DNA of 34,304 bases from an uncultured Balneola sp. (GTDB lineage Bacteria > Bacteroidota > Rhodothermia > Balneolales > Balneolaceae), in the NCBI GenBank assembly GCA_913058495.1, contig CAJXQC010000030.1, positions 1-34,304 on the forward strand. The letters run 5' to 3'. The notes beneath the pieces were generated by a model. The model had not been told where the DNA came from and made no database searches. It saw nothing but the letters and a program-made list of their open reading frames with translations. Position numbers and translations under genes: made by a program. This document shows positions 29,492 to 34,304 of this stretch, piece by piece (positions within the stretch are counted from its first letter, which is position 1; each line of letters starts with the position of its first letter).

Positions 29492-29710
29492 ATGAGTAAC
29501 TCAGCATTTGTAGATAAACTTTCCGACAAAGAAAAAATCAAATTAATGGAAGAGTTATGGGCTTCATTGAGAGAGCCCGTTGAAAAATACAACTTACCCG
29601 ACTGGCATGACTCTGAACTTGAGAATAGAGAAGTGAAAGTATCCAAAAAAGAGAGTTCATTTACAGAATGGAATACTGCTAAAAAGGAGATAAATAATTC
29701 CATTAAATGA
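29492..29710 (+). CDS. Antitoxin of a ParE/RelE-type pair (Unstab_antitox-like)
   Basis: The 72-residue, acidic protein resembles the addiction module component family: LSDKEKIKLMEELWASL (about 10-26) is followed by LPDWHDSELENRE. Its TGA overlaps the toxin ATG by 4 bp (ATGA), the usual arrangement with antitoxin first. It should neutralise the downstream ParE-like toxin and autoregulate the operon; this is known for such pairs, not shown here. Confidence 0.85.
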   Translation: MSNSAFVDKLSDKEKIKLMEELWASLREPVEKYNLPDWHDSELENREVKVSKKESSFTEWNTAKKEINNSIK

Positions 29711-30000
29711 ACATTCAACTTCTTGATGAAGCAAAAATCGATCTGCTAAATGGATATGATTTTTATGAAACCCTTGAGCCGGGTGTTGGTAGTTATTTTC
29801 TGGATTCTTTGTATTCCGATATCGAATCTTTAGTTATACATGCCGGAATTCATCCTAAGAATGAACAGGATTATCACTATATGCTGGCAAAAACATTTCC
29901 TTTCGCTATCTACTATAAAATTGAAAGCGGCTCTATTTTTATTTATGCTGTTCTTGATTGCAGATCCAATCCATCAGAAAAGACAAAGAAGTTAAAATGA
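29707..30000 (+). CDS. ParE/RelE superfamily toxin
   Basis: The 97 residues fit the ParE/RelE fold: LLDEAKIDLLNGYDFYETLE (an early helix with the common DLLNGYDFY motif), a central FPFAIYYKIESGSIFIYAVLDC and an end CRSNPSEKTKKL. ParE-like members poison gyrase, RelE-like members cleave mRNA; which applies is not decided. It overlaps the antitoxin by 4 bp. The pair separates ruvB from metK and may be a recent insertion. Confidence 0.85.
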   Translation: MNIQLLDEAKIDLLNGYDFYETLEPGVGSYFLDSLYSDIESLVIHAGIHPKNEQDYHYMLAKTFPFAIYYKIESGSIFIYAVLDCRSNPSEKTKKLK

Positions 30001-31529: not shown

Positions 31530-31979
31530 TTACCTGTTTTGGTAAAACCGATCTTTATTCCAATTCATCGGATTGTGTTTGATGTATTCCCGGATGTGAA
31601 ACAACGATTCTTCATTTCGAAATATGTGATCGTAATAACCCCGTTGCCAGATTTTGGTGCCCGGTGTTTTGCGGTATTCATTTTATACCAACCAATAATT
31701 TTTGAGATCAGCATTTTACGTCGGTGTTTACAATATAATTCCGGGTTTGTGTTCCTTTGTAGGGGCGATTCATGAATCGCCCCTACAAAGGGATTTGCAT
31801 TAACAATTTCAATGATACCATGAATATGATTGGGCATAACAATGTGTTCATGAATAATGGTATTTGGGTATCTGGTGTCAATTTGTTTCAAATAATCTGA
31901 TGCAACCACCCTGTATTCATTCATAATCGTACCCCTGCAAACGCATGGATTGGCGGTTTAGCAATTTATTCTGCTTCAT
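31530..31979 (-). pseudogene. Decayed RAYT transposase (REP-associated, Y1 type)
   Basis: Pieces of one transposase read in order on the minus strand. MKQNKLLNRQSMRLQGYDY (from 31979) is the family N-terminus; it then joins, apparently through an internal deletion, MNEYRVVASDYLKQ (from 31924). HEHIVMPNHIHGIIEI carries the catalytic HxH motif. A one-base loss in an A-run at 31667-31670 shifts the frame, after which TPGTKIWQRGYYDHIFRNEE (tyrosine YY included) and REYIKHNPMNWNKDRF follow to TAA at 31530. About 40-50 codons after GYDY are missing. The gene is not functional. Confidence 0.85.
31754..31791. repeat. REP-like 38-bp perfect palindrome, copy 2
   Basis: All 19 base pairs match; the left arm begins CCTTTGTAGGGGCGATTCA. 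It lies inside the RAYT pseudogene, where it encodes an in-frame peptide including GAIHESPL. RAYT enzymes are known to mobilise REP-type palindromes, so this may be the cognate substrate sequence. Confidence 0.85.
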
Positions 31980-32147: not shown

Positions 32148-33113
32148 TTATTTTAGCAGATCAACCGGGCTTTTGATGTAGTTACCGCCCTTATTTATAA
32201 CATGTGTATAGATCATTGTGGTTTTGAGGTTTTTATGCCCTAATAGTTCCTGTACTGTTCGGATATCATATCCGCTTTTAAGTAACTGAGTAGCAAAAGA
32301 ATGTCTAAATGTATGACAAGTAACTTTTTTGTTGATATTAGATTTCGCTACCGCCGTTCTAAGTTTTCTTTGTACCTGACGGCTTGATATATGGTGCCGA
32401 TGTTCCAGTCCGCTACGTGGGTCCTTGTTTATTTTTGATGAAGGTAATAGATATTGCCACTCCAACTTTGTGGAATCTAAAGGATATTTACGAATCAATG
32501 CTTTAGGAAGTAACGTTTTTCCATATCCCTTAGAAAGGTCTCTTTTATGAGTTAACTGTACTTTTCTTATTTGTTCTCTGAGCTTTGGTACAGTTTTTTT
32601 GGGTAAAAGACTTACCCGGTCTTTATTTCCTTTTCCGGATCGAACCCATATTTGCTCATTTTCAAAATCAATATCTTGTACGCGTAACCGCAAGCACTCA
32701 GAAATTCTGATACCACTACCATATAGTAATTCGCAGATCAAAAGAGTCTTACCACTTAGTTTTTCGAGAATTACAAGAGCCTCACTATGGGAAAGAACTG
32801 TTGGGAGTTTACTTGGTTTGTTCGCTCTCTTCAAATTATCGAGTTTGAGGATCTGTTTTCCAAGCACTTGTTTATACAAGAATACTAAAGCAGATAGAGC
32901 TTGATTTTGGGTGCTTGCCGCTACGTTTTGACGATTGGCTAAATCATTCAAAAACTCTTCTACCTTATCACTTCCTAGTTTTACAGGGTGGATGGTACCA
33001 TGAAAACGAATATACCGAACAATCCAGCTTGTATAAGCTTGTTCGGTTCTGTAGCTATAATTTCTACGCCTTATTTCCTGCCTTACTTTATCTAATAACT
33101 TTGATTTACCCAT
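32148..33113 (-). CDS. intI: Integron integrase (tyrosine recombinase)
   Basis: The 321-residue tyrosine recombinase has the catalytic Arg in GSGIRISECLRL, the Lys in GKGNKDR, HTFRHS, the second His in LLGHKNL and the nucleophile Tyr in MIYTHV. It also has the extra segment unique to integron integrases, ALIRKYPLDSTKLEWQYLLP followed by SSKINKDPRSGLEHRHH (about 204-240), which ordinary XerC/XerD lack. IntI excises and inserts cassettes between attI and attC. The gene reads away from the cassettes, as in other integrons. All catalytic residues are intact. Confidence 0.95.
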   Translation of the reverse strand: MGKSKLLDKVRQEIRRRNYSYRTEQAYTSWIVRYIRFHGTIHPVKLGSDKVEEFLNDLANRQNVAASTQNQALSALVFLYKQVLGKQILKLDNLKRANKPSKLPTVLSHSEALVILEKLSGKTLLICELLYGSGIRISECLRLRVQDIDFENEQIWVRSGKGNKDRVSLLPKKTVPKLREQIRKVQLTHKRDLSKGYGKTLLPKALIRKYPLDSTKLEWQYLLPSSKINKDPRSGLEHRHHISSRQVQRKLRTAVAKSNINKKVTCHTFRHSFATQLLKSGYDIRTVQELLGHKNLKTTMIYTHVINKGGNYIKSPVDLLK

Positions 33114-33321
33114 AACAAACTTGTCTATATTTATAATGTTGTTATCTTAGTAAGACCGATGAGAATGTGATTCCTTACAAAAATAATTAGATTTTATTTG
33201 ACGTGGTTATGCGACATTCTCTTGGTTATTAAAAATAAACTATGTGATTAGGTTGTATTAAGGTAGTTTTCGGAACTTTATGCGCCGTCCCATAATGGAC
33301 CCATTGTCGCATATTAATATG
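33114..33321 (+). promoter_or_regulatory. attI-like region with intI and cassette promoters
   Basis: This 208-bp gap between intI and the first cassette should hold the attI site and the divergent promoters. The crossover point is inferred at GTTAGTG (33321-33327). A palindrome CATATTAATATG (33310-33321) abuts it. A TTGACG at 33198-33203 is a weak candidate -35 of a cassette promoter, without a clear -10. Confidence 0.55.
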
Positions 33322-33327
33322 TTAGTG
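33321..33327 (+). other. Integron insertion point (G^TTAGTG)
   Basis: GTTAGTG matches GTTRRRY except for its last base and is repeated at 33677-33683, as a cassette boundary requires. Recombination is expected after the first G. The first cassette then starts at 33322. Confidence 0.65.
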
Positions 33328-33337
33328 GGCTTCTAGT

Positions 33338-33556
33338 ATGTTTGAAAATTTTTCCATAATCAAAATAGCTCTATTTGTTCTTTTGTTATTAATTACAATT
33401 TGGATGTTATGGAAGAAAAAATTCATTAGTTACAATATTCCAGGCGGAATAATTAAGGATAAAAAAAATTATCCTGTAGCATACTGGATAAGTATTATTC
33501 TAAACATAATTTTAATCCTAATTTTGCTATTGTTCAGTAATTTTAAAAATCAGTAA
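33338..33556 (+). CDS. Cassette 1: small membrane protein (72 aa)
   Basis: No family recognised. Two hydrophobic segments (about 8-24 and 49-67) flank a short basic loop (LWKKKFISYN) and a GGIIKDKKNYP stretch. It is the only ORF in the first cassette and begins 16 nt after the crossover point. It probably resides in the inner membrane; function unknown. Confidence 0.7.
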   Translation: MFENFSIIKIALFVLLLLITIWMLWKKKFISYNIPGGIIKDKKNYPVAYWISIILNIILILILLLFSNFKNQ

Positions 33557-33683
33557 GCCCACTAACAAAGCGTTTTAAATCGGACGCGGACGGGGTGCGA
33601 TGGAAACTTGCTTGTCAGGAATTAATTTCGCTACTTCAACTAAATTGTAATCCCCGCGCCATTTAAACGCTGGGTCGTTAGTG
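33557..33683 (+). other. attC recombination site of cassette 1
   Basis: The site has the attC layout. R'' is CACTAAC (33560-33566) and R' is GTTAGTG (33677-33683). L'' begins GCGTTTTAAAT (33570-33580) and pairs with ATTTAAACGC (33661-33670) except for one extra T; GGACGCGG further in pairs with CCGCGCC with one unpaired A. Such unpaired bases are typical of attC. A variable loop fills the centre. It starts right after the cassette 1 stop codon. Confidence 0.8.
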
Positions 33684-33693
33684 TGCATTTTTT

Positions 33694-34194
33694 ATGAAAA
33701 AGACTCTTATTGCATTCGAAATATTCCTATTAGTTGGGATCGGTGGCTATCTACTTTTCCACGAAACAATAAATCAGTTATTTATTGATGAATCAGCCTA
33801 CAGACAAGGTTTTTATGTACCAAAAGATCTTGAGGATTCATTTGACGAATTAGACCAGATACTTAACAAAGAAGATAGGAATTCATTGAAATCCTTGTCT
33901 TCAGAAGATGATCTCAGTATGTATCATTTTGGTTTGGGGACGTATCTTAGAAACAGATGGGGACTGTGGGGAGGTTCTCGTTTTAGTGAGTATTTTAACG
34001 AGCTTGGGATATATCATCCAGATGATATGTCTGGAATTATTTTAACCTCTTATTGGAGGCATCTAAATGATTTACCTCTGGAAGTAAAAAGGCAAGTAAA
34101 ATACTATCAGGATTATTGGGAACAAGTAGACCAGGCAGACACACTGTTACAAGATTTACCGGCTTCCACTGATTCTATAAAAAATGAACACTAA
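33694..34194 (+). CDS. Cassette 2: membrane-anchored DUF6794-like protein
   Basis: The 166 residues begin with a membrane anchor (about 5-22) and then a domain that I recall as DUF6794: YVPKDLEDSFDELDQIL, SMYHFGLGTYLRNRWGLWGG and HPDDMSGIILTSYWRHLN. The DUF6794 number is from memory. The anchor places the domain outside the inner membrane. It lies in the second cassette, 16 nt after its crossover point, with no promoter of its own evident. Function unknown. Confidence 0.7.
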   Translation: MKKTLIAFEIFLLVGIGGYLLFHETINQLFIDESAYRQGFYVPKDLEDSFDELDQILNKEDRNSLKSLSSEDDLSMYHFGLGTYLRNRWGLWGGSRFSEYFNELGIYHPDDMSGIILTSYWRHLNDLPLEVKRQVKYYQDYWEQVDQADTLLQDLPASTDSIKNEH

Positions 34195-34304
34195 CAAGCG
34201 TTTCAAACGGACTCGTTTAGGGTTCGAAACTTTAATAATTAAAACCAGACTCGCCGCTCATATCTTGTAAAAAGTACGTATTGTACTATTTAAGCAAACA
34301 GGAA
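34189..34304 (+). other. Partial attC site of cassette 2 (cut by window end)
   Basis: CACTAAC (34189-34195) overlaps the stop of the cassette 2 gene and is followed by AAGCGTTTCAAACGGACTCG, which parallels the start of the first attC. The matching GTTAGTG end is not found before position 34304, so the site continues beyond the window. Confidence 0.6.

Follow-up and report, generated by a model that had tools for sequence, protein, structure and literature searches.

An integron in an uncultured Balneola sp.: an interrupted attC site and conserved attI-like docks that one integrase may load in trans

Does an integron integrase serve only the cassette array beside it, or might it also supply arrays elsewhere on the chromosome? 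The question is raised by a contig of an uncultured Balneola sp. (CAJXQC010000030.1, assembly GCA_913058495.1), the whole of which (34,304 bp) is referred to here as the window; it is contig C30 of a genome of 3.40 Mb in 47 contigs. At its right end lie an integrase gene, intI, the recombination site attI, two cassettes and two attC sites, the second of them interrupted. The reading favoured here, with a probability of roughly 0.7, is that the window carries an integron, that an element of the IS110 family has entered the second attC, and that the one integrase would load conserved attI-like sequences elsewhere, here termed docks, in trans. At the sequence level it is supported by the integron parts, the junctions of the element, the docks, their conservation with a switch of DNA at the crossover, and similar cassettes at different docks. 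Genomes, contigs and loci are denoted by G, C and L numbers.

Integrase, attI and the first cassettes

A preliminary description of this DNA had placed an integron with an intact integrase at the end of the window, and an intact-looking IntI, attI, attC and two cassettes have all been recovered (Table 1). On its sequence, the locus appears to be a genuine chromosomal integron, in itself ordinary. The description had proposed to run an IntI profile on the contig; TIGR02249 (integrase_gron) matches IntI with 435.9 bits, over its cut-off of 265. The closest solved structure is 2a3v (IntI4), aligned over residues 4–318, and the family-specific insertion already claimed for the protein lies at residues 204–225 in an alignment with six other IntI. 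All of R136, K161, H267, R270, H293 and Y302 are present; these we take to be the expected active-site residues. Among the 58 genomes searched for IntI (own included), 29 contain a match above the cut-off. In the own genome the window IntI is the sole such match, the remainder being weaker and Xer-like. The eight closest named IntI loci (60–80% identity) are titled Gracilimonas, Balneola, Balneolaceae or Rhodothermia, in agreement with the earlier assignment to a chromosomal integron of Balneolota. An IntI-like tyrosine recombinase at G000:C19:21195-22019 (L129) matches TIGR02249 in two pieces (residues 2–180 and 240–315; 116 and 103 bits, below the cut-off) and therefore lacks the IntI insertion; similar matches occur in several genomes of the genus.

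The attI site was aligned over nine intI-adjacent regions, those of the window and of eight named loci. Conservation runs as far as ATGTTA and then ends, and the crossover is therefore placed at 33321^33322. Motifs resembling TTATGCGAC lie at 33207 and 33278, and the core ends in ATATTAATATGTTAGTG. A promoter-like TTGNNN-N16-TATNTN pair stands at the equivalent place in the window and at six of the eight named loci, against a background of 0.156 per 330 bp. The two GTTAGTG boundaries reported earlier were located at 33321 and 33677, and the cassette ATGs at 33338 and 33694 do each begin after 16 nt. Both cassettes had been called uncharacterised; this holds for cassette 1, which matches no family above cut-off, and fails for cassette 2, which carries DUF6794. 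The same domain is found in a second cassette of the own genome (L128:449-1402).

The attC with complementary arms described earlier is recognised by palindrome and by fold, starting at 33560 rather than 33557. Its palindrome scan score is 19; three shuffles of the window gave no site of at least 17, and 2, 1 and 1 sites of at least 15. The bottom-strand fold has a z-score of −2.74, with one of 200 shuffles as good, and −2.18 when four more bases are included; one of five attC sites folded reaches only −1.06. attC1 also aligns with attC-like sites from related loci. From these, a model (R1) was made of 29 of 31 candidate sites, those of L102 and L107 being excluded. The proposed covariance-type check gives attC1 109.9 bits with R1, a score that is not independent of the model because attC1 is among its 29 sequences. 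In the alignment the four R pairs are invariant and six of nine L pairs are changed on both sides (32 cells in total), as expected of attC, in which structure is better conserved than sequence; the sites were picked for complementarity, so this covariation count is biased towards structure. R1 has 15 matches over seven contigs of the own genome and matches in seven of the eight genus genomes. G004 has neither an IntI over the cut-off nor an R1 match, and G007 has no IntI over the cut-off yet 25 R1 matches. Further attC sites to the right of attC1 had been anticipated; a second site, absent from the preliminary description, does begin at 34189 and is broken after 34258.

Table 1. Coordinates of the integron and of the adjoining element in the window.
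Feature	Position	Strand	Basis
intI, integron integrase, 321 aa	32148..33113	-	TIGR02249; 2a3v; alignment with six other IntI
Pc-like promoter, TTG-N19-TATCTT, facing the cassettes	33121..33148	+	consensus match only
attI, crossover 33321^33322	33207..33327	+	conserved block in nine intI-adjacent regions; extent by eye
Cassette 1, frame 33338-33556 (72 aa)	33322..33677	+	boundaries by GTTAGTG
attC1	33560..33683	+	palindrome scan, fold, alignment, model R1
Cassette 2, visible part, frame 33694-34194 (166 aa), DUF6794	33678..34258	+	PF20594, 9.1e-36
attC2, 5' part, interrupted	34189..34258	+	25.5 bits with R1; whole counterpart at L128:355-444
Left end of putative IS110-family element in attC2	34259..34304	+	same DNA at ends of C26 and C19; ends like those of IS110 relatives

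Docks away from the integrase

Arrays on contigs C9, C19, C23 and C26 of the own genome, none adjoining intI, begin at an attI-like sequence. When the window and 26 other loci were scanned for the core, with patterns derived from sites already seen, 20 distinct matches were obtained, each just left of a run of attC and in the same direction; nine of the 27 loci had no match. The resemblance of docks to attI extends past the core, over 50–150 bp. At 24 of 28 docks the last 400 bp before the crossover include the end of an open frame that has 90 codons or more and runs in the same direction. The satellite arrays are attC clusters without a nearby intI—some consist of a single attC—and as such are CALINs (clusters of attC sites lacking integron-integrases). 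Comparison with related species suggests separate chromosomal docks fed by a single enzyme, and the simplest reading has one integrase serving several conserved docks in trans.

Some docks are conserved between species. Dock A of the own C26 has orthologues in G001, G006 and G007, with 86–92% identity over 1.6–2.5 kb up to the crossover, and in G002, where identity is about 71% and the likeness ends 84 bp before the crossover. Four species share the flank and the site of dock A and have no cassette in common; the cassettes therefore came or went after the species split. The C19 dock is shared by the own genome, G006 and G007 (89–94%), the C9 dock by the own genome and G007 (91%), and the C23 dock by the same two (93%), G007 having extra DNA before the last 101 bp. 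Beyond the crossover at these orthologous docks the DNA is unrelated, except for attC-sized pieces, and flank comparisons between loci likewise show different cassette contents at the same attI or dock; one further pair, G006_C18b and G007_C17b, has the same first cassette. The gene beside dock A is present in all eight genus genomes. Behind it, by eye, G003 has a core with ATGTTA as its end, G004 a comparable stretch that lacks GTTA, and G005 nothing alike.

The main alternative is that the satellite arrays are decayed complete integrons which lost their own intI, so that the attI-like sites would be fossils, not loaded in trans today. This is a serious contender, if an unlikely one. In its favour, five of 16 satellite sites retain the promoter-like pair otherwise found at the start of intI, and two further observations, given below among the points that weigh against loading in trans, concern genomes and a locus from which intI is missing. 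It is opposed by the dock A comparison above and by an upstream search of up to 3 kb, in which 26 of 28 docks had no IntI-like frame (two of the 26 had less than 600 bp to search); the other two have a weak IntI-like frame, which in one case is Xer-like in extent. The occurrence of similar cassettes at more than one dock also argues against it: one is found at the own C23 and at G001_C3 (96.5% over 576 bp), another at G001_C15a and G007_C17d (86% over 566 bp), and toxin-antitoxin-like cassettes of the own C6 recur in arrays of G001, G006 and G007 (91–95%).

An attI profile (R2), built from 16 of the 20 docks, gave 72 hits in the genus at E ≤1, of which the 31 at E ≤0.075 were classed: 16 are in the model, four are near-identical orthologues or homologues, and 11 are independent. 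All 20 hits of the first two groups precede an attC, which is circular. Of the independent hits, four (one of them intI-adjacent) are on the same strand as one of 118 attC (out of 137 at E ≤0.1) and no more than 3 kb ahead of it, a placement that 0.37% of positions would have (binomial p 6e-8). In other genera 19 hits were listed and 18 examined, some stretches stopping early at a contig end. Nine have a downstream attC on the same strand, one being intI-adjacent and the other eight lying in three genera; no attC on the opposite strand was seen at any of the 18.

Several results weigh against loading in trans at conserved docks. Seven of the 11 independent genus hits have no passing attC behind them (two have a weak one, of 19.2 and 17.8 bits), as do nine of the 18 hits examined in other genera, and three of those 18 have an attC upstream, one of the three being among the nine with a downstream attC. 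Within the genus, a dock hit at E ≤0.011 is lacking for 21 of 43 arrays or lone attC and, among arrays with at least two attC, for six of 18; in four of the misses (own C6, G003 C8, G003 C4 and G005 C12) a contig end truncates the array at or close to its leading side. Docks and attC are present in G007 and G030, neither of which has an IntI over the cut-off, and G007_C17a is an intI locus that keeps its flanks and has lost intI. G007_C17d, the G007 copy of the C23 dock, has a core of TTTA instead of GTTA. It is judged somewhat probable that the whole forms a distributed integron, in which one integrase would load, in trans, a set of conserved stand-alone attI docks spread over the chromosome, some of them with a Pc-like promoter; several genera of a single family would share this layout.

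Off-target insertion of satellite cassettes at minimal attG-like sites is improbable. Use of attG and other secondary sites by IntI is on record (PMC12901181, PMC10127599), but the likeness to attI covers 50–150 bp, past the core, the positions are common to several species, and attG insertions are said to be broadly spread (PMC12444791). Fragmentation of one array by the assembly, which the number of contigs and several arrays touching contig ends might suggest, is barely credible, since G002 is a single contig in which the main array lies at 0.99–1.00 Mb and an attC-bearing dock at 2.60 Mb, and since docks sit behind host frames common to several species.

At four unlinked docks, L161:19831(−), L226:5712(−), L231:1878(−) and L276:1833(+), the promoter-like pair and the core form a common compact unit, preceded in several of them by a AAGGGAAGGG-rich repeat. 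This unit may itself be mobile.

The element in the second attC

The window, and with it the contig, stops because a multicopy element splits attC2 at 34258^34259. The DNA after 34258 is identical to that at the ends of contigs C26 and C19, where it also stands directly 3' of CTCGCCGCT of an attC. The right end occurs twice, where C6 begins and where C17 stops; at both, AACACAGTAC is followed by CTTAAACGC, the 3' half of an attC. No third right end was found. All three left and two right ends lie in attC, and the element is therefore located at one exact place of the site, with CT on both sides. Five junctions in attC with a short CT core on either side correspond to the fixed-target insertion of the IS110 family.

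Assignment of the element at 34259, of which 46 bases are read in this copy, to this family is proposed from relatives of its ends. Relatives in other genera (G104, G024 and three copies in G102) end in an identical TTTTAACACAGTAC before CT. In G104 a 368-aa protein with the domains DEDD_Tnp_IS110 and Transposase_20 is encoded about 40 bp ahead of the matching end; no transposase was seen beside that of G024. The G102 copies start with CATAT after CT, like the window element, and in them, by eye, the transposase is preceded by roughly 300 bp and followed by roughly 50 bp, an arrangement that matches the IS110 layout given in PMC11187229. A point on the other side is that the own assembly contains no IS110 transposase (PF01548), so that the identification rests on the element ends. 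When the ends were sought in 128 genomes of the order, only partial matches were obtained outside the own genome, and these led to the IS110 relatives; the left end had no match in viral contigs, nor had the first 400 bases of C6 in plasmids. The three near-identical G102 copies (L199, L209 and L214) occupy the foot of a hairpin (CTGACAGG...CTGTCAGG; by eye) within a repeated sequence, and related elements may therefore prefer folded targets.

A group II intron or an IS200/605 element would be a different occupant of attC2. Both have been reported with cassette arrays (PMC7923331), and of the window element only the end is seen, not the body. Such an occupant is nevertheless improbable, given that a relative with an identical right end carries an IS110 transposase and that the three G102 copies share both end sequences and the flanking CT. 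The ends of a group II intron were rejected by eye on the 46 bases at 34259..34304.

Further cassettes had been expected beyond 34304. The window itself does not show them directly, as its contig ends inside the element. On C6 and C17 the right ends lead into the 3' half of an attC and then into more cassettes; a search for distal genes in relatives that would link the window contig to C6 or C17 gave no match. Behind the right end, C6 has five whole attC matches and one cut, with cassettes for DUF7660, for a DUF6794 protein resembling the one in cassette 2, and for two toxin-antitoxin-like pairs. A protein matching PF09720 is encoded past the final attC of C6 (L128:3588-3800).

From these sequences we infer recombination activity, promoter function, RNA guidance and action in trans, as follows. 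IntI would insert circular cassettes at attI (33321^33322) by attC x attI recombination, and the Pc promoter would express the first cassettes. The putative IS110-family element occupies the L' arm of attC2, at a CT dinucleotide; like others of its family it was probably guided there by RNA, and by splitting attC2 it would probably lock cassette 2. Acting in trans, the same integrase would probably also load the stand-alone attI-like docks, which follow host genes and are conserved across species.

Elsewhere in the window, the stretch 29492-30000 (+ strand) encodes an addiction-module antitoxin-like protein (PF09720) and, after it, a 97-aa frame that matches nothing in Pfam, and a possible remnant of a REP-associated transposase (31565-31924, − strand) has weak matches, below cut-off, to PF01797 and NF047646. 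An Rfam scan of the whole window gave nothing at gathering scores. Contigs C42, C45 and C46 of G000 (L159, L156 and L155) have AGATGTGTATAAGAGACAG in their first 50 bases, presumably a library adapter.

Comparison with known systems

Complete integrons are known in the wider group from Salinibacter ruber (PMC9024848), and attI-like secondary sites are in print (PMC10127599). In a RefSeq survey, CALINs were about as frequent as complete integrons (PMC9024848); three origins have been put forward for them, namely off-target insertion, intI loss and rearrangement (PMC8618304). The usual program misses attI outside class 1 integrons (PMC9024848), and docks of the present kind could therefore have been overlooked. 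Searches of the open-licence literature on integrons, CALIN, attI and attG yielded no report of conserved stand-alone attI docks, and a layout of one integrase with scattered docks is not usually described. If conserved attI-like docks are real, they would add a fourth route to CALINs, part of which would be working integron parts; a distributed integron, if true, would explain the conserved positions of some CALINs. The same dock search is applicable to Vibrio and Xanthomonas.

The sedentary chromosomal integrons of Vibrio and Xanthomonas have the same intI, attI, attC and cassettes in one direction, with toxin-antitoxin-like cassettes among them; they are described as having typically one attI near the integrase, whereas extra attI-like docks occur here elsewhere on the chromosome. 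CALINs at conserved Xanthomonas loci (PMC12444791) are likewise attC clusters without intI, at conserved positions, for which mobilisation in trans has been proposed; about half of the arrays here start at an attI-like site, whereas no attI is reported at those CALINs in the part of that paper drawn on. attG and delta-attI (PMC12901181) are secondary IntI sites with a GTT core, as here, but are short, while the docks are attI-like over 50–150 bp and common to several species. For the element, nothing closer appeared among the open-licence papers listed on IS110 elements and attC than the IS1111 elements ISKpn4 and ISPst6 (PMC11187229), which have a DEDD transposase, RNA guidance and a fixed attC target; the present element differs from that group in its insertion in the L' arm, and its relatives in a longer non-coding stretch upstream of the transposase.
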